Virus record (IMG/VR): IMGVR_UViG_3300025729_000005
Span: 1-32,679 of that record
Direction: 5' to 3' (one strand)
Source: a virus
DNA length: 32,679 bases
Shown: one piece after another, positions 5,138 to 31,942 of the stretch
Numbering within the stretch: the stretch's first letter is position 1
Layout of the letters: each line of letters starts with the position of its first letter
Program-made: the position numbers and the translations under genes
The notes under the pieces: model-generated
What the model was told of the DNA's origin: nothing
What the model saw: only the letters and a program-made list of their open reading frames with translations
Databases searched by the model: none

Positions 5138-5946
5138 ACATGCCAGTAGATCAAGCTATGAAGTATAGAAACATGGCTAATACACAGCCTATGGAAGCCA
5201 TGAGAGTAGCGCAAGGTGTGCCTAACCCTATGACGGGTATGCCTAATCCAATGGCTCCTGTGCAAGCTCCTATGGCTCCTCAAGCACCTTCTGGACTGGC
5301 TGGTGTGCCTATGAATACACAGGCTCCTATCCCTGTTCCTATTCCTATGTCAGGCAGAGATATGGCAGAGATGGATGTAAAGCAGAATGTAAATGAAATT
5401 CTTACAGCTACGCTTCCTGATGGAGACTCACTAGCAGCTAAGGCACTTGAAGTTCTGACTAAAAATTCCGGTGTGGATATTACTGAAGCAGTAGAAACAC
5501 AGTATAGTTTAGCTGATACTCAAGCAGCCCAGCCGTTTATGGAAATGGCTATGATGGAAGATACTGATCCTATGGAATTTAATGCTAGGTATGGTGGTGG
5601 TATTATGGGACTGAAGGCTGGTGGAGAGTTCTCAGGTAGAGTTGAAGGAGACGGTGGTGGCATGGAAGATAATGTATACATGCCTATTGTTGAACGAGCT
5701 ATGGGACAGCAAGTAGGTACACTTGACAATCCTAAACAAGTAGGTACACTAGCAGTTAGCCCTTCTGAGTATGTAATTGATAGTCATACAATGGCAGCAC
5801 TAGGAAATGGTAATGCAGATGAAGGTGCAGATATCATGGATAATGTTGTAAAAGATATTCGTAAAGATGCTTATGGAAATACTAAACAGCCTAATGAAAT
5901 TAATGGCTTGGCTTCCTTAACATCTTCAATAAATGAGAGGACATAA
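5134..5946 (+). CDS. Conserved marine-phage virion-type protein, Pro/Met-rich N-terminus
   Basis: 270 residues, coupled to the previous gene by ATGA; a second in-frame ATG at 5140 is an alternative start. The first 70 residues are low-complexity Met/Pro/Ala/Gln. The C-terminal half has the conserved-looking blocks GGGIMGLKAGGEFSGRVEGD and VSPSEYVIDSHTMAALGNGN, a pattern I recall in many marine phage and cyanophage proteins of unknown function next to tail and injection genes. No catalytic motif is visible. It is probably a structural or scaffold-like component, inferred from position only. Confidence 0.6.
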   Translation: MNMPVDQAMKYRNMANTQPMEAMRVAQGVPNPMTGMPNPMAPVQAPMAPQAPSGLAGVPMNTQAPIPVPIPMSGRDMAEMDVKQNVNEILTATLPDGDSLAAKALEVLTKNSGVDITEAVETQYSLADTQAAQPFMEMAMMEDTDPMEFNARYGGGIMGLKAGGEFSGRVEGDGGGMEDNVYMPIVERAMGQQVGTLDNPKQVGTLAVSPSEYVIDSHTMAALGNGNADEGADIMDNVVKDIRKDAYGNTKQPNEINGLASLTSSINERT

Positions 5947-8519: not shown

Positions 8520-11500
8520 GTGGCTGAAAATCCTTTTCTTAAACTAGCAGAACCTGCTACCGCTAAAAATCCTTTTTTAGAATTAGCAGAACCTGTTCTT
8601 AAAAATAACCAACCTGTTCCTAGTACTTCTAAAAATCCCTTTTTAGAATTAGCGGAGCCTGTTCCTAGTACTTCTAAAAATCCTTTTTTAGAATTAGCGG
8701 AGCCTGTTCCTAGTCCTATGGCACAGGCAGCAGCAGAAGGTCCACAACCTACTGATGCAACATTTACTATGGATAGTCTTGATACTAATAAAGCATGGAT
8801 TGATTCTGCTAGAAAGATTTATCAAAGTGAAAAGGGTCCAATACCTATTGAAATGCAGCGTGATCCAGCCAAGCTTGCTCAGTGGCTGAAGGAAAGACAT
8901 TCTGAGATTGGTTGGAGTCTTGCAAATGTAGCTGGTAAAGGTATAGTTGAAACTGCTTTAACTACATTTGATATGAAGGACGATGCCAAGCAAGCATGGA
9001 TCAAATCACTTGATATGTATGAAAAGACTGACAGTGATTGGGGTTCAAGAGCGCGGGCCGCTAAACAAATAGCACTTGATCCTACTACATGGGGCAGTTT
9101 AGTATTTGGTTTTGGTGTGGGTGGCGTAGCTAAAATGGCTGGTCAAAGAGGGGCATCTAAGGTTGCAATTAATTTATTTAAAAAAGAATTAGTTAAAAGT
9201 CTTACACAAGCAGGGTATAAAAAAGGTGCAGTTAATCGTGCTGTTACCGAAGGTGTGTCTCGTGCTATCCCAGCAGAAATTTTAAAAGCACATGCTAAAT
9301 CTGCTGCTACAAGAGCTGCTGTTAAAAAAGTTGGCAAAGCTGCTGCTACAGGTGCTGGTTATACGGGAGCATTTGATGCTTCTGAACAACAGTTTGGCAT
9401 GAATATTGATGATAGCAAAGACTTTAACTACGAACAATTTGCAGCTATGACAGGATTAGGTGCTGGTGTTGGTCTTGGTCTGTCTGGTATTGGTAAGGGT
9501 ATTAGCAAGCTCAGAGGTAAACAATCTGAACTAGCTAAGTTTGAAGATGACATTGTAGGGCAAGCAGATACTGAAGCAGCTTTTCGTAAGAAAGGATATT
9601 TCCGAACTCCTGAAGTTCAGAAAAGATTAGAAGACGCTGAAGAAGCTGCTTTCAAAGACCTTGATACTACTGGTCCTAATGTAGATAACCGTGGAAAAGT
9701 AATTGAAACTATTGGCAATGCAAACACATTCCTTGGTAGGTTGCTGAGAAGTGATGGTGCTTTAGCTAAACCTCTTGCAGATGCTAATGTAAGAAGAGAA
9801 AATATTGATGCCTTACAGCTTCAAGGTAAAAGATTATTCAAAGCTTTTAAAAAAGAATACAAGACATTAGGTCAGGCTCAGAAAGATAAAGTTAATAATT
9901 ATCTAAGTACTGGTGAAGGTGGAGATGAATTTAGTGAGGGCTTTATAAAAGTTTCAAATGAGATTAAAGAATACATTAAGAAAAACGAAGAAACTTTTAA
10001 TATAGCAGCAGGTCTTGAAGGACAAAGTAAATTAGGAATTGGTCACAAAAACGGTGAAGCATATTTTACTAGATTTTATGAAGCAGAAAATAATCCTGCA
10101 TATTTAGAGCTAGTAAAAAAAGCTCTTTATTCTAAAGAAGGTGATAAAATTACTTGGAGCAAGGCTAAGAGCAGCGAAATAATAAACAGAGTTACTAATA
10201 TGAGAAAGCAGTTAGAAAAAAAAGGTGTAGCTGCTGAAGACCAAGACGAAGTTATTTTAGGTATAGTTAAAAATCTTGCAAAGGGTGAGAATGATTTATT
10301 TACTGATGCAGTAGTAGAAGCATCTACTAAAGTTGTTAGACCTAAAATAACTAAAAATTTAAAAGGAAGAACACTAACTGATACAGAGTATGATAAAGCA
10401 GTTAGAGAGTTACTTGGTGAAGTAGATGATCCTTTAAAGGGAATACAAAAAACTTTTGAAACTCAGACAAGATTAATAGGACAGGCTCAGTATTTAGCAG
10501 ATGTAGATAAGTATGCTAGAGAAGCTTTAAAACAATCTGGAAAAGAATTTGTAGATATTCCTATGGGTGGCTTGATTCCTAAACTTCCTACTCGTATTGA
10601 AAGAATAGACAAGAAAAAAATTGTAGCAAAAAAAGAAAACATTGTAGATGCAAAAGGTAATGTAGTAAGATTTACAAGTGGACCTAATAAAGGAAAGATT
10701 AAACAAAAAACTGTTTATGAAAGAGAAGATGACGGGTTAAACGATTTTATACAAAAAAGTTTAGGCAACAGAGCAAGCTCTGCTAGTGTTCTACAAGGTC
10801 TGTATGTAGCTCCTAACATGGCTACATATATTCGTAATGGTATTAATCTGTTTGATGGTAGCAGAGAAGTTAATAAGTTTATGGCTCCTGTTCAAAACCT
10901 AGCCGCTATTGGTCAGGCATCTCAAACAATTTTTGATATTCCTGCCTATGCTTTAAACACAGTAGGTGCAGTAACAATGGCTGCTGCTAATGGTCACATT
11001 ATAAATCCATTTGCTTACAAAGCTGCTAAAGAAGCAGTAAAAAATACAGTAGAACAGCTCATATTAAAAGACAAAAATGCTATTATAAAATTAGAAAAGT
11101 TAAAAAGAGCAGGGCTGATTGAGTCTGATTTGTCTGCCGAACTAATTAGAACTAATGTCAATAGGTCTTTAGTTAATCCTAAAAATATTTTAACTAAGGG
11201 CTACAGAAATGCAATGGAAAAAGCAGGTAAAGCTTATGGTCAGCCTGATACCTTTGCTAAGTTATTGTCTTTTGAAAGTGAGTTAAACTCTGTAAGAAAA
11301 ATGTTTGGTAAAAATTTATCAGAGGAAGATTTAATAAATCTAGCTATTGATAGAACAAGGGCTACTATTCCTACATACAATGCTGCGGCTCCTCTTGCTC
11401 GTCAGCTATCTCGTTTGCCTATTGGTACATACGCTTTGTTCCCTTCTGAGATTGTACGCACAAGCAAAAATATTATTAAAGTAGGGGTAACTGATATTAG

Positions 11501-14336: not shown

Positions 14337-15080
14337 CTACTTTTGTTTAAGTTTTGTAACTTGTGGATACATCTCTAGCTTATAGCCATCCATAATTAAT
14401 TCGTCAGTTTCTTTATCTACAGTATCGAAGAACAAATATATTTTTAATTCAGGATATTTAAAGGACATGTCAGCAAAGAAGTTTAACCATGACTGAGGCT
14501 CAAAAACAGAGATATGTACGTTAGTTCCATCAGCAAACTTCTTTATCGCAGGGACACACGAAATATTAAAGAAGGCTATCTTACCTGCATAGGATAGAAT
14601 TTCATCCACTACCCACTTCAAGTCTGTCTCTGGAACATGTTCCAACACATCAGTACAAATTACTGCATCAAAGTTACCCTTCTCCCAAGGATCAGGCAGC
14701 GCATTATGCTGCTCATATGCTGGGTCGTACAGTCTAAAAGAATCTAAATTCCAAAGTTCTCCAAGGGGCTTATCTATTTTATCAGATAGTTCTTTAAAGT
14801 CATCGCCATAAAGAACACCCTTACCAGCACCATAGTCTAGCAGACTAATGCAGTCATTTTTTTCTAGATAGTTTCCAATAATACCTACAAATTTTAATAG
14901 GCTCTTACCGTTAAACATTCCTTTAGCTGCGGAGTGCATCTCCTTATATTCCAAGAGAAGCTCATGGTACTTTTCAGATGCGTTGTGCTTATTAGTATGA
15001 GGTGACTTATAATCAATCTCTCTGTCTGGGATAGTTCCCCATTTAGAAATCTTGGTTTCTTCCCAGCTATTATCAGTCAT
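14337..15080 (-). CDS. Class I SAM-dependent methyltransferase
   Basis: 247 residues. Motif I is SLLDYGAGKGVLYG (about 79-92), and the post-motif region VICTDVLEHVPE supplies the usual motif II/post II of class I methyltransferases. SAM binding is therefore well supported; the substrate is not. Its start overlaps the end of the 799-residue glycan-type protein by 8 bases, and together with the glycosyltransferase upstream it forms a trio that could build or modify a surface or virion sugar. A C-terminal segment mentions NVHISVFEPQSWL, seen in sugar or small-molecule methyltransferases. It is not a DNA methylase: no DPPY-type motif. Confidence 0.8.
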   Translation of the reverse strand: MTDNSWEETKISKWGTIPDREIDYKSPHTNKHNASEKYHELLLEYKEMHSAAKGMFNGKSLLKFVGIIGNYLEKNDCISLLDYGAGKGVLYGDDFKELSDKIDKPLGELWNLDSFRLYDPAYEQHNALPDPWEKGNFDAVICTDVLEHVPETDLKWVVDEILSYAGKIAFFNISCVPAIKKFADGTNVHISVFEPQSWLNFFADMSFKYPELKIYLFFDTVDKETDELIMDGYKLEMYPQVTKLKQK

Positions 15081-17472
15081 TGTAGTAATCCTTAAATTGA
15101 GGGCGCTTGTCCCTACTGTTATTTATTTTCCAAAGATCAGCAACCATTGTATTTTCTCCGTGGAAATCTAACACACCTTCCATGCCCTGATCTGAAAAGA
15201 CTTTCTCGCAATCTTGTGCCATAGCTAGAAGCTCACCTGTAGTCCAATAAGTTTTATCTTCTACATTAACTTCAATGTACTTAGGCGTAGGAACTTCTCC
15301 TCCTTCTACATCACCCGTAGTCTCTGTTTTTTCTTCTTTCGTAGGCTCTTCTCTACAACAATCAAAGCCCCATAGATGAATATTTCTAATGCCCATTGTA
15401 TGGAAGACGCCAATAGCTCTCATGGCTGCACACGTACCGCCAGTAATAAGCGTAGCTCCTTGAGGGATGCCAAGGTTATCTTCTACCTTAACCTGCTGAT
15501 TAACAATTTCTTTACCCTGCTCTTCTTCTTGACGAAGGGAATCAGTATAGGCATGCCAACCATAGATAGAAGCCTTGTTCTCAATCAAGTGCTCAGTAAC
15601 AGAAGGATCAGTCATAGAGGCAACAAAGAATCTTGTAGTAGGATCAACGGTTGCAAACAAGTCTTTACGAATAATGTTGTGTGTACTCTTACCTGTAATA
15701 GGTCGAGGGTCTAAGACAACACAGCCCCAAGGCTTGATACCTTGAGCAAGTAGGTGTGGATACGCGTGTTTAACTGTAAGTAATTTAGCATGTGGGTTAT
15801 CACTGATAAATTTTTTCAGTGCATCGTAGTCGATGTACGGCCCAGCAGAAACAATAATACCCATTTCTTTATTGGCAGGATGTTTAGTTACCCACTTTTT
15901 ATCTCCAATAAGTTTCATATTGGTTTGGATATTATTTGTAATGTACTCTCTAGGAACTGAGTCTCTTGGATGTACAATAATAGGCACACGTTTCAATGTG
16001 TCTGGAACTTCTTCCAAGTCTAAATCGCTTAGAACAACCGCAAGATGTGTATGTCCACCATCAACTACCTTATCTCCAGAAGGTAAGATGTATTTTCTAA
16101 CTACACTCTTCTCGTCAAAGACAGTCCACCCATCTTCTACCGCAGGTTTTTCTTCTAATTTCTGTATGGCAATACCATCAAAAACTTTTTTAACACCCTG
16201 AGCTTCTTCCTGTGGAATATTGTCGTCGTCATCCTCTGTAAAGTAATGATCCATGACAACAACTGGAACATCTTTTAAAAACTCATACTCAATCTCTACG
16301 GTTTCTTTACTGTTGCCGCTGCCAATTAAAGCAAAGTCTACAGACTCTAATTGATGTGGATATTTTTTAAGATTATCTAGCTTATAGTGTTTGGCTAGGC
16401 TCTCTCTTACATTTCCTTTTACTATTTCAAAAGAGAAATCTTTCTTCTCTTTCTCTTTCATGTGTTCCTTAAACTCGGCAAGCCTAGCTGAGACAGCCTT
16501 CTCTGTGTTGTGTGACTTAACATTAAATTCTAAAGCATCTGTGGCTGACGTAGCGTCTTCAAACAAATCAAAGCCAACATAATGAACAGTGTCTGTATTC
16601 TCAAATGCTGCCAAAGCCATCTCAACAGCCCGACCTGCATTCCATGTGCCTGTCTCTAGCAGAGTGCTTGGCTTGTAGTGCCTAATTAAGTCAGCAAGCT
16701 GGCGATACCTGTCGGGTAGAATGTCTGGAGATGTTTCGGTATCAGACAGTTGAATAAGCCTGTTACCTTCTTTGTCTCTAAGAGCAGCATTCTTCTTATC
16801 TCTGAGACAAGCAAATAAATCATTAACATAGGAAGACTTACTAGAAATCTCATGTACCCTCATGCCATGAGCTACGTAAATGGTACGAAGCCTATTTAAA
16901 ATAAAGCTGTCATGCCACTCACGATAGTTCAAGAACTCTCCAGAAATAAACGCTCCTCTAAAATCTCCAAGCAAGTCTACTGCTGTCTGTCTAGAAAGAT
17001 TGTAAGCAGCAAAATGACCTGAGTCATCAAGACATACCATATCAATCTTTTCTTTCCCATCAGGAAATAGTTTATCTAGTTCTGCTACTGTAATCTTTTT
17101 CTGTGAGATTACGTCAGGGTCTAGCCAGACCACCCATGCATCAACATTATTAAATGCACACTCTGTTATAGCTAAGACACGAGGCATAAACTTATGTGGG
17201 TCTAGGATATCCTGATATGGAATCTGTCCTCCCTCAGTACCGTTATGTTCTGCGTACTCACTGGAAAAATTAATATAGTCCTCTAGATTATCCAGAGCAT
17301 GGTAAAAAATATTTGACCCTTGAGGTAGGCTATGCTTAGTAATATCCATATCATAGTGATATAAATGAAACTCAATATCCTGAGACCAAGAATCTTTAAA
17401 TTGATTTAGAACTATGTTTCCTGTTTGATTTAGAATGTCTTCGTTAAAACAAGTTACAACTTTATATTTCAT
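15073..17472 (-). CDS. Three-domain glycan-related protein (GT-like, SAM-like, DUF115-like)
   Basis: 799 residues. Residues about 1-230 resemble a GT-A-type glycosyltransferase-like domain, with WVVWLDPDVI as the DxD region and YNLSRQTAVDLL and EWHDSF later. Residues about 265-430 contain LLETGTWNAGRAVEMALAAF, a methyltransferase-24-like SAM fold, with VPVVVMDHYF. Residues about 500-760 match the DUF115/MptE-like domain of flagellin and glycan modification proteins: GIIVSAGPYIDYDAL, LLTVKHAYPHLLAQGIKP, CVVLDP, and GGTCAAMRAIGVFHTMGI. It overlaps both neighbours and likely works with them on one carbohydrate. The substrate is unknown. Confidence 0.65.
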   Translation of the reverse strand: MKYKVVTCFNEDILNQTGNIVLNQFKDSWSQDIEFHLYHYDMDITKHSLPQGSNIFYHALDNLEDYINFSSEYAEHNGTEGGQIPYQDILDPHKFMPRVLAITECAFNNVDAWVVWLDPDVISQKKITVAELDKLFPDGKEKIDMVCLDDSGHFAAYNLSRQTAVDLLGDFRGAFISGEFLNYREWHDSFILNRLRTIYVAHGMRVHEISSKSSYVNDLFACLRDKKNAALRDKEGNRLIQLSDTETSPDILPDRYRQLADLIRHYKPSTLLETGTWNAGRAVEMALAAFENTDTVHYVGFDLFEDATSATDALEFNVKSHNTEKAVSARLAEFKEHMKEKEKKDFSFEIVKGNVRESLAKHYKLDNLKKYPHQLESVDFALIGSGNSKETVEIEYEFLKDVPVVVMDHYFTEDDDDNIPQEEAQGVKKVFDGIAIQKLEEKPAVEDGWTVFDEKSVVRKYILPSGDKVVDGGHTHLAVVLSDLDLEEVPDTLKRVPIIVHPRDSVPREYITNNIQTNMKLIGDKKWVTKHPANKEMGIIVSAGPYIDYDALKKFISDNPHAKLLTVKHAYPHLLAQGIKPWGCVVLDPRPITGKSTHNIIRKDLFATVDPTTRFFVASMTDPSVTEHLIENKASIYGWHAYTDSLRQEEEQGKEIVNQQVKVEDNLGIPQGATLITGGTCAAMRAIGVFHTMGIRNIHLWGFDCCREEPTKEEKTETTGDVEGGEVPTPKYIEVNVEDKTYWTTGELLAMAQDCEKVFSDQGMEGVLDFHGENTMVADLWKINNSRDKRPQFKDYYND

Positions 17473-18241
17473 TAGTCAGTCCATGTAAAAGTAAATAAGA
17501 ATAATCCATATTCCACTCGGAGGCATACTGTGCATCCACAGTTCTCTGACAATTCCAATCTTTAAACCAAGGACCACCAGTTGTGAAGTGAACATTTTTA
17601 GCATCAAGGTTTACATCTGAATGTCCATCAAGCCAGTTCCAGTCCTCTGTGATCTTGCCAATGTCAGATGCTTTATCAGAAAGCCAGCCAAACTTATGTA
17701 GCCAAGACCCACTGTTTGAATTGATCTCATTAATTGTTAGCTTCTTATGTGCAGGGTGAGCACAGTTCCATAGTACAAAGCTAGACCAGTTTTTTCTAAA
17801 ATAATTTTCTTGCAGCTTACCGTCCATCTTAACTGTTTCTGTAGGAGCATAATCATGCTGCACACAAAACAAAGGATAAAAATCTGAGTACTCCTGAGTA
17901 GTATACTCTTCAAACAAATCATTAATGTCTGTCCGCATATACATATCACAGTCCATATATAAAGCCCATCCTTCATACATGTTAAGTGCTGGAACCAAGA
18001 ACCGAGTGAAGCTAAAGTCTGTAGAGAATGGTCGCCCATCCTTGCTGTCAAAAAACTGATCGTCTACAATATCAAACTGTCTGTAGTATAGACCCATGCG
18101 TTCCATTGTAGGTCTCTTGATAGGTAAGATTCTGATAGGCTTTGATGCTGTTCGCTCTATAGAAAACTTACATACATCATAAGCTGTCTGTTCGCGTGGA
18201 TCGTATCCTATGTATACAGTAAATGGTAATTCTTTAGACAT
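17462..18241 (-). CDS. GT-A-fold glycosyltransferase (GT8-like)
   Basis: 259 residues. VYIGYDPREQTAYDVCKFSI at the N-terminus followed by FSFTRFLVP and ALYMDCDMYM, where D97-x-D99 is the metal-binding DxD, is the pattern of GT8-like nucleotide-sugar transferases. A C-terminal FTTGGPWFKDW is also typical. It probably transfers a sugar to a phage or host surface molecule. The start lacks a nearby Shine-Dalgarno: the ATG follows a perfect hairpin by 9 bases, and a GGAAAGGA lies just ahead of the hairpin. It overlaps the next gene by 11 bases. Confidence 0.75.
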   Translation of the reverse strand: MSKELPFTVYIGYDPREQTAYDVCKFSIERTASKPIRILPIKRPTMERMGLYYRQFDIVDDQFFDSKDGRPFSTDFSFTRFLVPALNMYEGWALYMDCDMYMRTDINDLFEEYTTQEYSDFYPLFCVQHDYAPTETVKMDGKLQENYFRKNWSSFVLWNCAHPAHKKLTINEINSNSGSWLHKFGWLSDKASDIGKITEDWNWLDGHSDVNLDAKNVHFTTGGPWFKDWNCQRTVDAQYASEWNMDYSYLLLHGLTNEI

Positions 18242-18290: not shown

Positions 18291-18701
18291 TTAGTTAATT
18301 TTAATAGTCTTGGGTTGCTTTTCTTTTGGAACTTCTCTTTGAAGTGACAAAGTTAAAATACCATTCATGAGTTTAGAAGCAACAACTTCCATATGCTCAC
18401 TCATCTTAAACTTTTTATAAAAATCTCTTTCCGCAATACCGTTGTATAAATTTTCAGTTTTATTTTTTGTATCTCTGCTACCTTTGACAGAAACCAAACC
18501 ATCTTCAGAGGTAATTGATAATTCTTCTTTAGTAAATCCTGCTACAGCAAGACTTAATTTAAAATTATTTTCGTCAATCTTGGTAATGTTATGTGGTGGA
18601 TAGTTGCTACTAAACTGATCTTTGATATTTTCCAGTTCCTGAAATAAAGAATCAAACCCAATTGCATAGTTACTTAATACTGTTCTTGTAATATTTGGCA
18701 T
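18291..18701 (-). CDS. Small heat-shock protein, Hsp20 family
   Basis: 136 residues from the ATG at 18701, chosen because AAAGGAG precedes it well; an upstream in-frame ATG at 18752 has no such site. The alpha-crystallin domain covers about residues 40-130: FKLSLAVAGFTKEELSITSE, DGLVSVKG, then NGIAERDFYKKFKMSEHMEV, with the hallmark NGILTLSLQREVP (A-x-x-x-N-G-V-L-type motif) and a C-terminal tail with PKTIKIN, close to the IxI anchor. It binds unfolding proteins to prevent aggregation in the infected cell. Its own strong promoter at 18761-18789 suggests expression independent of nrdJ. Confidence 0.9.
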   Translation of the reverse strand: MPNITRTVLSNYAIGFDSLFQELENIKDQFSSNYPPHNITKIDENNFKLSLAVAGFTKEELSITSEDGLVSVKGSRDTKNKTENLYNGIAERDFYKKFKMSEHMEVVASKLMNGILTLSLQREVPKEKQPKTIKIN

Positions 18702-18760
18702 AATATTTTTCTCCTTTGGCGAGTTAGTGAAGCCCCGTTTTAGCAGCTTCATATATATAC

Positions 18761-28616: not shown

Positions 28617-28634
28617 ATGCCGTACTGATTTCAT
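28596..28634 (-). CDS. 12-codon mini-ORF (MKSVRHNVGGMV), probable junction scar
   Basis: MKSVRHNVGGMV is coupled at both ends: its ATG overlaps the stop of the 269-residue gene (TGATG), and its TAA overlaps the nuclease-like start (TAATG). Residues 1-6 equal the start of the 60-residue repeat protein (MKSVRH), and residues 7-12 resemble the end of the cupin protein (DNVGGVV). This looks like the left joining point of the cassette. It may be translated merely to pass ribosomes on. Confidence 0.5.
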   Translation of the reverse strand: MKSVRHNVGGMV

Positions 28635-28635
28635 C
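28617..28635. repeat. 19-bp exact direct repeat, copy 1
   Basis: The sequence atgccgtactgatttcatc occurs here and again at 29634-29652, 1017 bases apart, in the same orientation. In both places its reverse complement encodes the MKSVRH start. A crossover between copies would delete the 269-residue gene with repeat ORF 3. Confidence 0.9.
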
Positions 28636-29443
28636 AGGTACGAACTTCCAACGCACGGAGAATATCCGTATCGACATCATACCCCCACGCATTGGCCTGT
28701 AAGGCTGTTTCCATATCAGGTGGGACAGGAAGGGCAAACCGACGACCAGTCCCACACTTGACGCGGAGGAATCGTTCAGGGTCCATGTCTGGAAGCTGAA
28801 CCTCGACGAGCGTCCCAATCATGGGGTCGTCGTCTTCGTCGATAATCTTGGCGTCCAGCTGTTCAAGGATATTATCCCAGCCGACCATCTCACAGGCCAC
28901 CCGGCGCTGCTCAATGTTCGGCCAGTGGAGTGCTTCTTCAGGCGTTGGCGGGGTGGCTAGCCACTGCTCCGGGAAGTCTGTTCCGTGCCAACAGTACAGG
29001 GAGAAGCCGTCAGAGTACCGTAATGCGGGACCTGTCTCCGAGTGCAGGTTGTGCTCATCATCAAAGTGCATTTCTGCGGGACGTTCATAGACGATGGCAA
29101 GTCCGTCATACATCGCAACTGGTCCGCCGTGACGGGCAATGTCCAGAAGAGGACGGATTTCTTCTATCCCATCAAGGCCAATAACTTCGTCGAAGTAGTT
29201 ATAGAACGACAAATATCCTGCCGACAAGTTGCCCCAGAAGATGGCACAGAGATGCTCACGCTCCGGGCTTTTTCGGAACTCGACGGTCGGTACTTTAAGT
29301 CCGGCCTGAGTGTAGGCCCGAGCAATGGCATCCACCGTTGCGTCCCGATCAACCGGGGCAGTGGATAGACCGATGTCGATCCACATCTCTACGTACTCGT
29401 CCAGACGTGCTTCCTGTTCTGGCGTGATGGATTCAATTTTCAT
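28634..29443 (-). CDS. DUF6745-like protein B (269 aa)
   Basis: The start at 29443 is chosen because AGGAGAACTAAC precedes it. A longer in-frame reading from 29635 would only read repeat DNA in another frame (Gly-Ser-Thr runs). The N-terminus ITPEQEARLDEYVEMWIDIG, then LSTAP, resembles the start of bacterial DUF6745 proteins. The core has LHSETGPALRYSDGFSLYCW, then HG and WPNIEQRR, and the end FLRVKCGTGRRFALPVPPDM and LEVRT. It is homologous along its length to the 285-residue protein at 30253-31110. GC is high (about 58% in sampled lines). No catalytic motif is known; function unknown. Confidence 0.8.
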   Translation of the reverse strand: MKIESITPEQEARLDEYVEMWIDIGLSTAPVDRDATVDAIARAYTQAGLKVPTVEFRKSPEREHLCAIFWGNLSAGYLSFYNYFDEVIGLDGIEEIRPLLDIARHGGPVAMYDGLAIVYERPAEMHFDDEHNLHSETGPALRYSDGFSLYCWHGTDFPEQWLATPPTPEEALHWPNIEQRRVACEMVGWDNILEQLDAKIIDEDDDPMIGTLVEVQLPDMDPERFLRVKCGTGRRFALPVPPDMETALQANAWGYDVDTDILRALEVRT

Positions 29444-29468
29444 GTTAGTTCTCCTGTTACTGATGTGA

Positions 29469-29651
29469 TTACACCTGTACGTCTGACCTGACCCGGACCC
29501 GGTCCCAGACCCGGTCCAAGACCCGGTCCCAGACCCGGTCACTGACCCGGCCACTGACCCGGCCCCAGACCCGGACGTAGACCCGGTCACTGACCCGGCC
29601 ACTGACCCGGACACAGACCCGGTCCCTGACTTCATGCCGTACTGATTTCAT
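29469..29651 (-). CDS. Tetrapeptide-repeat protein 3 (60 aa, V-x-D/G-R type)
   Basis: [12 protein letters not shown] followed by degenerate four-residue units such as [WSL]-[DG]-R-V (GRVSDRVYVRVWGRVSGRVS). Its ATG overlaps the stop of repeat protein 2 (ATGA). Compared with the other two it has Arg instead of Gln in the repeat (V-W-D-R). The start is homologous to repeat proteins 1 and 2 (M-x-x-V-R-[YH]-[QE]-V-R-D). It has no signal peptide or Cys pair. It would be strongly basic and regular, perhaps a helical or solenoid rod. Function unknown. Confidence 0.6.
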   Translation of the reverse strand: MKSVRHEVRDRVCVRVSGRVSDRVYVRVWGRVSGRVSDRVWDRVLDRVWDRVRVRSDVQV

Positions 29652-29652
29652 C
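29634..29652. repeat. 19-bp exact direct repeat, copy 2
   Basis: Second copy of atgccgtactgatttcatc, covering the start codon and first five further codons of repeat protein 3. The partner is at 28617-28635. Confidence 0.9.
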
Positions 29653-29941
29653 GTGTCTTCTCCCAGACCCGGTGATAGACCCGGTCCCAGACTTGGTCCC
29701 CGACTTGGTCCCAGACTTGGTCCCAGACTTGGTCCCTGACTTGGTCCCCGACTTGGTCCCAGACTTGGTCCCAGACTTGGACCCAGACTTGGTCCCCGAC
29801 TTGGTCCCAGACTCGGTCCCTGACTTGGTCCCTGACTTGGTCCCCGACTTGGTCCCAGACTTGGTCCCAGACTTGGTCCCCGACTTGGTCCCAGACTCGG
29901 TCCCAGACTTGGTCCCTGACTTGGTAACGGATATTAATCAT
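29648..29941 (-). CDS. Tetrapeptide-repeat protein 2 (97 aa, V-x-D-Q type)
   Basis: [16 protein letters not shown] is followed by about 20 copies of [WRG]-D-Q-V and ends in YHRVWEKTR. The ATG overlaps the repeat-1 stop by 8 bases, and the ribosome site AGAGGAAC lies inside the last codons of repeat protein 1. The repeat would put a Val every fourth residue. The protein is almost free of other residues, so it probably forms one extended regular structure. A fused version of such repeats within DUF6745 proteins is recalled from bacteria. Function unknown. Confidence 0.65.
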
Positions 29942-30225
29942 CTTGTTCCTCTCTTAGGCTGTCCCCAACTTGGCCCCCGACTTGGTCCCAGATTTGGTCC
30001 CAGACTTGGTCCCTGACTTGGGGCCCAACTTGGCCCCCGACTTGGTCCCAGATTTGGTTCCCAACTTGGACCCCGACTTGGTCCCAGACTTGGTCCCAGA
30101 CTTGGTCCCAGACTTGGTCCCTGACTTGGTCCCCGACTCGGCCCCCGACTTGGACCCTGACTTGGGGCCCAACTTGGTCCCCTACTTGGTCCCAGATTTG
30201 GTTCCCAACTTGGTCCCTGACTTGG
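29665..30225. repeat. Tandem 12-bp DNA repeat array
   Basis: Units close to gacttggtccca/g/c repeat with a 12-base period across 29665-29925 and 29960-30225, interrupted by the start region of repeat gene 2. A more degenerate GC-richer version (gacccggtccca-like) covers 29490-29630. Because 12 is a multiple of three, all frames stay open: the + strand reads VPDL and a third frame reads GTKS. Copy changes would not shift the frame. The first array shows a higher-order repeat (the GNQIWDQVG[DG]QVGPQVR block occurs twice). Confidence 0.9.
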
Positions 30226-30242
30226 TAACGGACATCAATCAT
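29934..30242 (-). CDS. Tetrapeptide-repeat protein 1 (102 aa, V-x-D-Q type)
   Basis: [20 protein letters not shown] starts a run of [WRG]-[DNP]-Q-[VI] units ending in [20 protein letters not shown] precedes the ATG by ribosome-site distance, and the leader is nearly identical to that of repeat protein 2 (29942 region), which points to gene duplication. The ATG lies 10 bases after the DUF6745-like protein A stop. Gly is more frequent here (V-G-D-Q), and the block GNQIWDQVG recurs. It is hydrophilic enough to be soluble. Function unknown. Confidence 0.65.
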
Positions 30243-30252
30243 CTTGTACCTC

Positions 30253-31110
30253 TCACGTCCGAACTTCTAACTTACGAAGAGTGTCGCCATCAATATCGTA
30301 AGTCCAAGCGTTGGCTTCCAAAGCTGTGTTGATATCCGGGGGCACCTGTAAAGCAAACTCCCGGCCAGTCCCACACAACACCCGAAGAAACCTCTCCGTA
30401 CCTACGTCTGGGATATGGGCTTCCAGCAGTTCCCCAATCATAGGATCGTCATCCCTATCAATCGTCTTGGCATTCAGTTCCTTAAGGATGTTCGCCCACC
30501 CTACGATCTGACAGGCAGCTAACCGCTGTTCCATATTGGGCCACTGGAGGGCTTCCGAAGCAGAAGGGGGGTGATCCTCCACCCAGTCTTGCGGGATAGT
30601 TGTCCCATGCCAAATGTAGACGGAATAGCCATCGCTGTACTGGATAGCAGGACCATCCTCGCAATGGAGAAGCCGGGCATCATCAAACTTAAGAAGGGTT
30701 GGACGCTCCTGTACCACACAAAGAGTATCGAAGTAAGCTACCCAACCACACAGCTTGGCTATTTCTAGCAATGGTTTGATAGTCTCCATATTCTTCAGCC
30801 CAACGACAGTTAAAAAGAAATCGTAGTGCCCAAGACTACCAGCATCGTGGTTGTTCCATGCAAAGCTTTCGAACGCGGCGGTTCGGGAGATCCCTCGCTG
30901 CTCAAGTAGGTCAAGGGCAGCATTAGGAGAGGGGACATACGCAATTTCTTTTGGGGGTTCCCTACCTGCGTTTGTGTACACGGCGGCCACAGCCGAAGGA
31001 ATTTTATCCTTGTCAGTAGGCGCAGTTGATAGTCCAATTTCCAACCAACGGTCGCGATAGACAGGCATAAGCGCCTCCTGCTCGGGAGTTAGTTTTTCTA
31101 TTTTAGACAT
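30253..31110 (-). CDS. DUF6745-like protein A (285 aa)
   Basis: SKIEKLTPEQEALMPVYRDR, then LEIGLSTAPTDKDK, at the N-terminus; NHDAGSLGHYDFF in the middle; LLHCEDGPAIQYSDGYSVYI, then WHG and WPNMEQRLAACQIVGW; and FLRVLCGTGREFALQVPPDI with the end LEVRT. It is the homologue of the 269-residue protein B, most alike in the last 150 residues. A GAGGAAC Shine-Dalgarno lies 8 bases upstream. In bacterial DUF6745 proteins, as I recall, repeat runs sit between the GLSTAP part and the DAG-x-L-x-x-YD part; here that place is short and the repeats form separate genes downstream. Function unknown. Confidence 0.8.
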   Translation of the reverse strand: MSKIEKLTPEQEALMPVYRDRWLEIGLSTAPTDKDKIPSAVAAVYTNAGREPPKEIAYVPSPNAALDLLEQRGISRTAAFESFAWNNHDAGSLGHYDFFLTVVGLKNMETIKPLLEIAKLCGWVAYFDTLCVVQERPTLLKFDDARLLHCEDGPAIQYSDGYSVYIWHGTTIPQDWVEDHPPSASEALQWPNMEQRLAACQIVGWANILKELNAKTIDRDDDPMIGELLEAHIPDVGTERFLRVLCGTGREFALQVPPDINTALEANAWTYDIDGDTLRKLEVRT

Positions 31111-31172: not shown

Positions 31173-31523
31173 TTAGTCGGAGGCCCGGCGGAATCCCTCA
31201 GACGTGTATTCGCGCTGACGGCGTACCTCATACTTGCCTGTCCCAACCAAAAGTGTTTCGTGGGTATCGTGTGAACGCTCATGCACGATCTCCGTGGGGG
31301 CTTCCACCTCGAAGAACAGGCGGTACAAGTCCTCGTCACTTGTCTCCTTAGGACGGTAAGCTTTGACTCGGTCCTTCACCATCGTGTGGTTATGTCCTGT
31401 CTCGCTGTGGGCAACCACGTACTGGCCTTTCTCGGCCTCGTACGGTTCGACATCATCGGGGATGTCGTCAATCCGGATGATGAGGAAGTCGCCTTGTGCT
31501 GCGATTCGATCAAAACTTTTCAT
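31173..31523 (-). CDS. Small conserved-type protein with HSETGHNH motif
   Basis: 116 residues behind AGGAGAACTACC. Features: KSFDRIAAQGDFLIIRIDDI, HSETGHNH (39-46), then FFEVEAPTEIVHERSHDTHE and GTGKYEVRRQREYTSEGFRR. I recall bacterial and phage proteins with the last motif (YEVRRQREYTPEGWRR) as small neighbours of DUF6745 proteins, which fits here. The histidines could bind a metal, but nothing proves it. High GC like the rest of the cassette. Function unknown. Confidence 0.75.
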   Translation of the reverse strand: MKSFDRIAAQGDFLIIRIDDIPDDVEPYEAEKGQYVVAHSETGHNHTMVKDRVKAYRPKETSDEDLYRLFFEVEAPTEIVHERSHDTHETLLVGTGKYEVRRQREYTSEGFRRASD

Positions 31524-31593: not shown

Positions 31594-31618
31594 TTCATTA
31601 TACCACGCCGCCTACATT
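31594..31618. repeat. Cassette flank repeat, right copy
   Basis: Partner of 28592-28616 (21 of 25 identical). It is the end of the cupin gene (DNVGGVV-stop) plus the TAATGA that in the left copy begins the nuclease-like gene. Confidence 0.75.
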
Positions 31619-31942
31619 GTCCCTAATGATATCATTAAAGTTAAGCTCTGCCCAATAAATTTCAAGGGCTTTGGTTTCCTGACAGGCTTCAAAAGAATGC
31701 TTCTCTCCAGCAGGAACCACACACATATCTCCCATAAACAAATGTGTTTCGTCTATCAAGCCATAGTCTTTATGTCGTTTAATAATTAACTCTCCTTCCA
31801 AGACATAGAAAGCATTGATCTTACTTTGATGTGCATGTGTGCTACAAAAACCACCGAGATCAATGTTAATTTCATGGATTTCAATGGCTGGTGTTTGCAG
31901 CAAGGGGCGTGTGCTTCCCCAAACTTTTCCTTCAATGTTCAT
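31598..31942 (-). CDS. Small cupin-fold protein
   Basis: 114 residues. The cupin motifs are STHAHQSKINAFYVLEGEL (H36, H38 and E49) and GDMCVVPAGEKHSFEACQET (H82), giving the usual 3-His/1-Glu metal site of a single-domain cupin. Such proteins range from sugar isomerases to metal-binding proteins; the ligand cannot be told. The ATG overlaps the stop of the 57-residue gene upstream (ATGA). GC is ordinary for this phage, so it belongs to the backbone and not to the cassette. Its end is duplicated at the far side of the cassette. Confidence 0.8.
   Translation of the reverse strand: MNIEGKVWGSTRPLLQTPAIEIHEINIDLGGFCSTHAHQSKINAFYVLEGELIIKRHKDYGLIDETHLFMGDMCVVPAGEKHSFEACQETKALEIYWAELNFNDIIRDNVGGVV

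Follow-up and report, generated by a model that had tools for sequence, protein, structure and literature searches.

Stand-alone tetrapeptide-repeat genes in a viral genome appear to correspond to a tract found inside related DUF6745 proteins

The window analyzed here, a stretch of viral DNA of 32,679 nucleotides, contains three consecutive open reading frames that consist almost entirely of four-residue units, which raises the question of whether such frames are genes and what their products could do. The three frames are flanked on either side by a DUF6745 gene, and the features of this region are the following:

28634..29443, minus strand: DUF6745 protein A, 269 aa; Pfam PF20530 with E 5.2e-26 (scanned as 28634-29449); without internal tetrad tract
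29469..29651, minus strand: repeat ORF 1, 60 aa, x-x-R-V tetrads, basic
29648..29941, minus strand: repeat ORF 2, 97 aa, Trp-rich W-D-Q-V tetrads, acidic
29934..30242, minus strand: repeat ORF 3, the first of the three to be transcribed, 102 aa, acidic, with Gly-rich x-x-Q-[VI] tetrads
30253..31110, minus strand: DUF6745 protein B, 285 aa; Pfam PF20530 with E 1.1e-24; without internal tetrad tract
31173..31523, minus strand: 116-aa partner gene, next gene upstream of DUF6745 B; motifs H-S-E-T-G-H-x-H and D-x-H-E

The coordinates given in an earlier note for the three coupled ORFs, 29469-30242, proved correct, with ORF 2 overlapping ORF 3 by 8 bases, and ORF 1 overlapping ORF 2 by 4 bases in a stop/start pair. 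The common start that it had described, M-x-x-[VI]-R-[YH]-[QE]-V-R-D, is present in all three ORFs. The unit that it had proposed, [WRGS]-[DG]-[QR]-V, was followed strictly by 14 of 25 tetrads in ORF 3, 19 of 24 in ORF 2, and 8 of 15 in ORF 1, while the looser form x-x-[QR]-[VI] fits more of them (22/25, 22/24, and 12/15, respectively) and makes up 80-91% of the three ORFs. A run of six such looser units was found in any frame in none of 200 dinucleotide-preserving shuffles of the window, and Tandem Repeats Finder described the region as 12-base arrays. The repeat period is four residues, and the five-residue period of pentapeptide repeats was not found. Purine-rich, Shine-Dalgarno-like stretches (GAGAGG, GAGAGG, and GGGAGAAG) precede the three starts. 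Another contig, L016, is the same as the window over the 1882 bases compared, which cover the whole ORF 1 and most of ORF 2, and it stops within the repeat array. A separate repeat of 45 bases in 2.3 copies, with a KNPFLELAEPV motif, is located at 8613-8714 on the plus strand, early in a 1401-aa ORF of unknown function.

Because further frames are also open across the repeats, the window alone cannot decide whether they are coding. The frame was therefore compared in 78 stand-alone ORFs located beside other DUF6745 genes, with nine near-copy loci left out. The tetrad frame was kept in these ORFs, while the other five frames contained stops in 76, 74, 54, 78, and 78 of them. The frame-breaking changes in relatives that the earlier note had named as evidence for noncoding DNA are thus the opposite of what was observed. 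The stand-alone copies have a common start, with the consensus MKSVxxQV, frequently overlap end to start, and carry phage-specific tails, such as ..HEISS (L209), ..DDYHE (L197), and ..EEDLDVD (L239), while a strict Shine-Dalgarno-like motif was found 5′ of only 20 of the 78. Since the frame is held in diverged relatives in which other frames are closed, and since the variation avoids third codon bases, the three ORFs are very likely real protein-coding genes.

To what the repeats correspond was learned from the neighboring genes, outside the coordinates to which the earlier note had looked for an explanation. The two flanking proteins matched PF20530 with 91.7 bits (28634-29443) and 87.4 bits (30253-31110), against a curated cut-off of 27, while no PF20530 match was found by Pfam search in the three repeat ORFs. 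Both proteins have the usual N- and C-terminal parts, and the tract is absent. In many relatives, the N-terminal part is followed by about 7 to 85 tetrads and then by the DUF6745 domain, and each tetrad of this cis form has one or two variable residues joined to fixed ones, such as S-Q-V, A-Q-V, D-S-V, A-N-I, or A-A-T; a gene for a partner of ~110 aa is located close to it. The tracts are lineage-specific, including x-S-Q-V, x-[AD]-Q-V, x-S-Q-L, x-[DA]-S-V, x-[AD]-N-I, x-[DA]-N-L, x-A-A-T, x-S-A-T, and x-N-A-V; an S-S-L tract is located within the DUF6745 protein of phage record MW202476, and a D-Q-L tract within that of a mycobacterial prophage. At the same site the DUF6745 protein of Ma-LMM01 (gp174) has a non-repeat insert, and a Deinococcus DUF6745 protein has, as judged by eye, leucine-rich-like repeats ahead of the domain. 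The domain occurs in many phages and also on 11 bacterial plasmid records (actinobacterial, cyanobacterial, and Deinococcus). Compared with these cis proteins, the window has tetrads of the same kind, the same domain as neighbor, and the same partner gene, but its DUF6745 genes are without the tract, and stand-alone genes of such tetrads are located nearby. As judged from sequence, the repeat ORFs appear to correspond to the insert of DUF6745 proteins and not to the domain. Many contigs (L153-L161, L171, L173-L176, and others) end inside the DUF6745 tetrad tract; hence, it seems to be a point at which assemblies break, and tracts may be longer than reported.

The relation between the tract in cis and the repeat genes in trans was then counted in a DUF6745-first sample, which consisted of the best 80 of 234 viral loci and 15 genomic ones; two of these 95, L156 and L204, gave no ORF, which left 93 loci in 66 clusters. 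By a rule tuned to xxQV-like tetrads, stand-alone genes occurred at 13 of 22 tractless clusters, compared with 0 of the 44 clusters that have an internal tract (Fisher 2e-8, with kinship ignored). As many tract contigs begin inside the tract and so miss one flank, loci flanked on each side by 2.5 kb or more were counted separately, and stand-alone genes were present at 0 of 20 tract loci versus 12 of 20 tractless loci. Where they occur, xxQV-like genes number from 1 to 12 per locus, on both strands and on either side of DUF6745. The tractless loci L183/L184 and L202 have stand-alone genes of a different tetrad, x-N-A-T (seven ORFs in L183 and five in L202), and their nearest kin carry internal x-A-A-T-like tracts. 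A post hoc count that also included these xNAT arrays, as well as arrays located beyond the locus or falling short of the rule, reached 18 of 22 tractless clusters; it added L183/L184, L202, L191, L201, and the L215 cluster, the last via record G020 of L223, since in the record of L215 itself no array was found with the xxQV DNA pattern or the repeat-gene profile. No arrays were found at the remaining tractless clusters, L190, L219, L236, and L162, the last of which retains three units. The Ma-LMM01 DUF6745 protein is also tractless; the xxQV DNA pattern had no match in Ma-LMM01, and no xxQV arrays were found in the mycobacterial prophage either. When the repeat scan was loosened, four tract loci came up. 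Of these, L231 was masked N, and L179 and L227 were seemingly other low-complexity ORFs rather than stand-alone repeat genes; the fourth, L233, from a bacterial MAG, contains at 5203-5916 a 237-aa ORF that includes a separate stretch of M-L-R-G tetrads, with a DUF6745 gene on the same contig, and it was left uncounted.

On a tree of 68 DUF6745 domains, on which the post hoc array loci were coded as trans and L162, with its three units left, as cis, the trans state required five changes. At least four of these were forced by well-supported branches, and one uses the different tetrad x-N-A-T. When only tree-independent pairs were compared, 2-4 of 5 (mean 3.6) were in the expected direction and none in the opposite, with p of 0.125 at best. 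That the same split seems to have arisen several times suggests that the tract could be a swappable recognition part that can act in trans.

The association was also seen when the sampling began from the repeats. The earlier note had considered proteins made of nothing but such units rare, which does not hold for uncultured phages, as a pattern scan of viral contigs listed at least 120 stretches. From the matches listed, 31 records with stand-alone arrays and 31 controls, which were other low-complexity hits, were picked by eye, while the other 58 listed stretches (fused, truncated, or ambiguous) were left out of both sets; L095/L104, L102/L124, and L069/L085 are seeming near-copies in this sample. 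Among the records so picked, DUF6745 was present in 15 of the 31 array records and the partner gene in the same 15, and neither was present in any of the 31 controls. The other 16 array records were without DUF6745 and partner; five of these are 27-103 kb long, and many others are fragments. A repeat-gene profile compared with 18 records of tractless or remnant loci matched 13, one of them doubtfully. The match in the L162 record (9.9e-4), located in a 474-residue frame, is probably the DUF6745 gene's own remnant. One phage record had 23 profile matches and another had 15, some of the matches crossing stop codons.

The third member of the module is the 116-aa partner, which was found by tblastn of the fetched loci at 88 of the 93 DUF6745 loci. 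It belongs to PHROG 27831, of unknown function, and had no match in Pfam, NCBIfam, or PADLOC, and none among PDB sequences at E ≤ 0.2. Its invariant columns include H39-S-E-T-G-H44-x-H46, H81, R83, D86, and H88-E89, and the HSETGHxH and DxHE motifs look like a metal site. In small searches of chosen proteins (11 for the plasmids, and 4 for Ma-LMM01 and the prophage), the partner profile matched Ma-LMM01 gp175, beside the DUF6745 protein gp174, with 52.8 bits, and a protein beside DUF6745 in the mycobacterial prophage with 35.8 bits. On plasmids it matched the gene ahead of DUF6745 in Deinococcus (38.1 bits) and in two Streptomyces (32.6 and 30.7 bits), and weakly in Nocardia (16.5 bits), while on a Mycolicibacterium plasmid the gene directly before DUF6745 was not the partner by this profile; hence, the partner is present on four of the five DUF6745 plasmids examined, on one of them weakly. 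On the Streptomyces and Deinococcus plasmids of L283, L284, and L287, the DUF6745-partner pair adjoins STM4011-STM4015, a set of five that includes two radical SAM proteins and a hydrolase. Among named phage records, tblastn found the partner only in one environmental record.

Further genes of the window were noted as well. Upstream of the partner, at 31598-31942 on the minus strand, is a small cupin protein (Pfam Cupin_2; PHROG 7851, cysteine dioxygenase), which was matched at none of the 93 other DUF6745 loci. On the same strand, 14337-18241 is a row of three genes, for a methyltransferase-like protein (Pfam Methyltransf_23, below cut-off), a 799-aa protein without a PHROG match, and a 259-aa protein without a Pfam match, and 18291-18752 encodes an Hsp20 small heat-shock protein.

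The pattern of sequence change was examined in internal tracts and in stand-alone genes. In 1145 units of internal tracts from 42 loci, a set that includes the near-copies L169/L232, L170/L172, L237/L238, and L192/L193, and from which units that departed from the consensus were removed, a script placed the most variable codon first. In this codon minor bases, which differ from the lineage consensus, were counted 564, 420, and 92 times at positions 1, 2, and 3, and one-step codon pairs differed at these positions 117, 66, and 20 times. Third-base changes, many of them potentially silent, are thus few, while amino-acid changes are abundant. The data for 864 stand-alone units, with ten near-copy loci left out, gave entropies of 1.80, 1.57, and 1.42 bits and of 1.65, 1.46, and 0.91 bits at positions 1, 2, and 3 of the two most variable codons, while Q and V were mostly constant. 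Fixed third bases together with changing first and second bases suggest that variety is selected for, which is also a feature of arms-race genes. In the repeats of the window, CAA and GTC have shares of 0.98 and 0.86, while in its other ORFs these are 0.46 and 0.11; a similar skew was observed in 14 of 15 relative loci examined, with L164 differing (nine near-copy loci were left out of this comparison). CAAGTC as a universal DNA motif was rejected, as it is common in xxQV arrays but not in L164, and the cores of other lineages differ (GCCACT). Since other lineages keep other cores, the rule looks like a fixed core with variable bases; it is our guess that the synonymous sites are fixed via homogenization by recombination. 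Among five contigs with identical DUF6745 600-mers, the array ORFs differ in length and number, which may be due to assembly errors, while in the near-identical sets L195/L197, L224/L226, and L199/L200 the arrays do not differ.

AlphaFold2 predicted ORF 2, as a single chain, to be one uninterrupted helix from residue 2 to 96, with a mean pLDDT of 90.8 and a pTM of 0.41, a prediction that does not bear on assembly. For the cis protein of L180, the N-terminal part was confident and the DUF6745 domain had pLDDT mostly above 90, while the tract was predicted as two helices with block pLDDT mostly 53-68. In a helix with a four-residue period, the stripe made by equivalent residues turns by 40 degrees per unit. 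A rod with a 4.0-residue repeat would thus have no straight hydrophobic face, a point against the binding-rod reading given below. A fold search with the DUF6745 model gave no PDB match at E ≤ 0.001, while in a viral fold library it found, at the same threshold, the LMM01 DUF6745 protein (6.4e-15) and two uncultured-phage fragments; no match of DUF6745 was found among PDB sequences. VIA-align hits of the tract helix to 7mto (Z 4.1, rmsd 7.5, 55 aligned) and of the C-terminal part to 6pon (Z 3.9, rmsd 3.7, 61 aligned) were both read as common arrangements.

Sequence searches with the repeat ORFs gave no match above the curated cut-off, where one exists, in Pfam, PADLOC, or NCBIfam; the weak matches there (Cas2-like, DUF4816, GvpQ, and others) were judged composition-driven, and the best PDB sequence matches of ORF 2, to 4dou (3.7e-4) and 9mvt (5.3e-4), were also taken as composition. 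The matches of ORF 2 to two short PHROGs of unknown function, 5189 (3.9e-6) and 33514 (1.9e-5), were better and may represent true kin. No match to named phages was found by blastn of the region or by tblastn of ORF 2, the latter being uninformative because BLAST filters low complexity. A literature search, which covered sources other than most subscription papers, found neither the string DQVWDQV nor such repeats, and no paper naming DUF6745 or giving its function.

Both DUF6745, as a catalogued domain family, and hypervariable phage tetrapeptide-repeat proteins, as a kind, are already known. According to the accessible part of the source, Tweety gp54 (Che8 gp57, PMC gp51) is built from 12-base units with six constant bases and a unit number that differs among relatives (PMC2884959), and the available portions of later reports give it 40-48 tetrads and describe escape mutants with more or fewer units that beat a prophage defense (PMC9262239, PMC8549241). 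The likeness lies in 12-base units that change at first and second codon bases, as also observed here (PMC2884959, accessible part). The difference is that gp54 is a single protein, in which AA[GWQ][SY] tetrads are combined with unique ends, and no tetrad-only gene family is described in the portions available. In a comparison of gp54 with DUF6745 alignment A4, hhalign gave a probability of 0.4%, and gp54 had no Pfam match. Bordetella phage variable region 2 (bbp36) is similar in having short repeats of variable number in a phage gene, but, as far as the accessible text goes, its element has 24 bases; it is set beside the repeat ORFs here by description (PMC2884959). Pentapeptide- and leucine-rich-repeat proteins share short repeats with fixed and variable positions, but in the repeat ORFs the period is four, a helix is predicted, and there is no Pfam family above cut-off. 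The trans, multigene form of the tract may deserve more than the status of a variant.

The explanation that we prefer, although we consider it about evenly balanced between right and wrong, is that the three ORFs represent the tetrapeptide tract of a DUF6745 module in detached form and encode diversifying binding rods that act in trans. Each product would be a helical rod that joins DUF6745, the partner, or both, and whose binding surface is formed by variable residues (W, R, G, E, Y, D, S) presented in a row, while 12-base slippage and recombination would alter the number of units and genes with the frame intact. The earlier note's proposal of diverged roles or assembly into one structure was half right, in that the ORFs are a set of diverged copies; joint assembly is weighed below as a scaffold. 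The target of the rods would be fast-changing, most likely a component of host defense or of host takeover, which is the weakest step of the proposal; a role in conflict with host defense is our guess by analogy, and this step is drawn from the likeness to Tweety gp54. In a narrower form of the same explanation, which is possible but on the doubtful side, the repeats and DUF6745 would neutralize a host or prophage defense, with the unit number setting the range. The unit-number mutants of gp54 and its similar mutational style, as given in the accessible parts of the sources cited above, are consistent with this, as is the position of the module before the replication genes in the minus-strand gene order of the window. 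However, gp54 is not a DUF6745 protein by the searches above, no credible PADLOC match was found, and the plasmid setting next to STM4011-STM4015 does not resemble one for phage counter-defense. Moreover, the early genes of Ma-LMM01 are gp054-gp063 in the available part of the source (PMC5780444), which places gp174 and gp175 outside the host-takeover class.

The other explanations depart further from the preferred one. That the acidic helices of ORFs 2 and 3 and the basic helix of ORF 1 form a fiber or sleeve, as a virion or scaffold component, is improbable: the opposite charges (K+R/D+E of 16/8 in ORF 1 versus 11/20 and 7/18 in ORFs 2 and 3) and the helix predicted for ORF 2 would suit it, but the ORFs share strand and side with the replication genes and are distant from the virion genes, which are on the plus strand, the tract is inside the DUF6745 protein in many relatives, and DUF6745 also occurs on the bacterial plasmids. 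In addition, R-V units predominate among the copies of L013, which is the closest relative of DUF6745 A, so that the charge pair is not conserved there. A minisatellite that is selfish or neutral, in which 12-base DNA would spread by slippage and several frames would be open by chance, would explain the strikingly uniform CAA and GTC codons and the further open frames of the window. It is very improbable, considering the frame kept in relatives with other frames closed, the common starts, phage-specific tails, and overlapping stop/start pairs, the depletion of third-position variation at the variable codon, which is the opposite of the neutral expectation, the complementarity with the DUF6745 tract, and the different core, GCCACT, of another lineage. 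We give even less credence to the stand-alone ORFs being a relic, the decaying debris of a former, dispensable internal tract. Some arrays do contain degenerate copies (L197, L006, L009), but debris would not multiply to the 15 and 23 profile matches of two phage records, and it would not account for intact frames, for arrays that occur on either strand and on either side of DUF6745, and for five parallel changes.

Returning to detached rods as the preferred reading, a protein part that shuttles between an internal tract and a separate gene family is unusual and offers a natural experiment, in which the parallel splits suggest action in trans. The split arrays mark the changing part and hence where to seek its target. 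A broader form, which we regard as unlikely but worth stating, is a phage repertoire system, in which DUF6745 and the HSETGHxH partner would form a conserved core that takes up interchangeable helical tetrad rods, encoded in cis as a single long tract or in trans as many small genes, and the rods would gain new binding specificities by shuffling 12-base units with the hot-spot alphabet W, R, G, E, Y, D, and S. If this were true, the all-tetrad gene families would be a new class of diversifiable recognition proteins.
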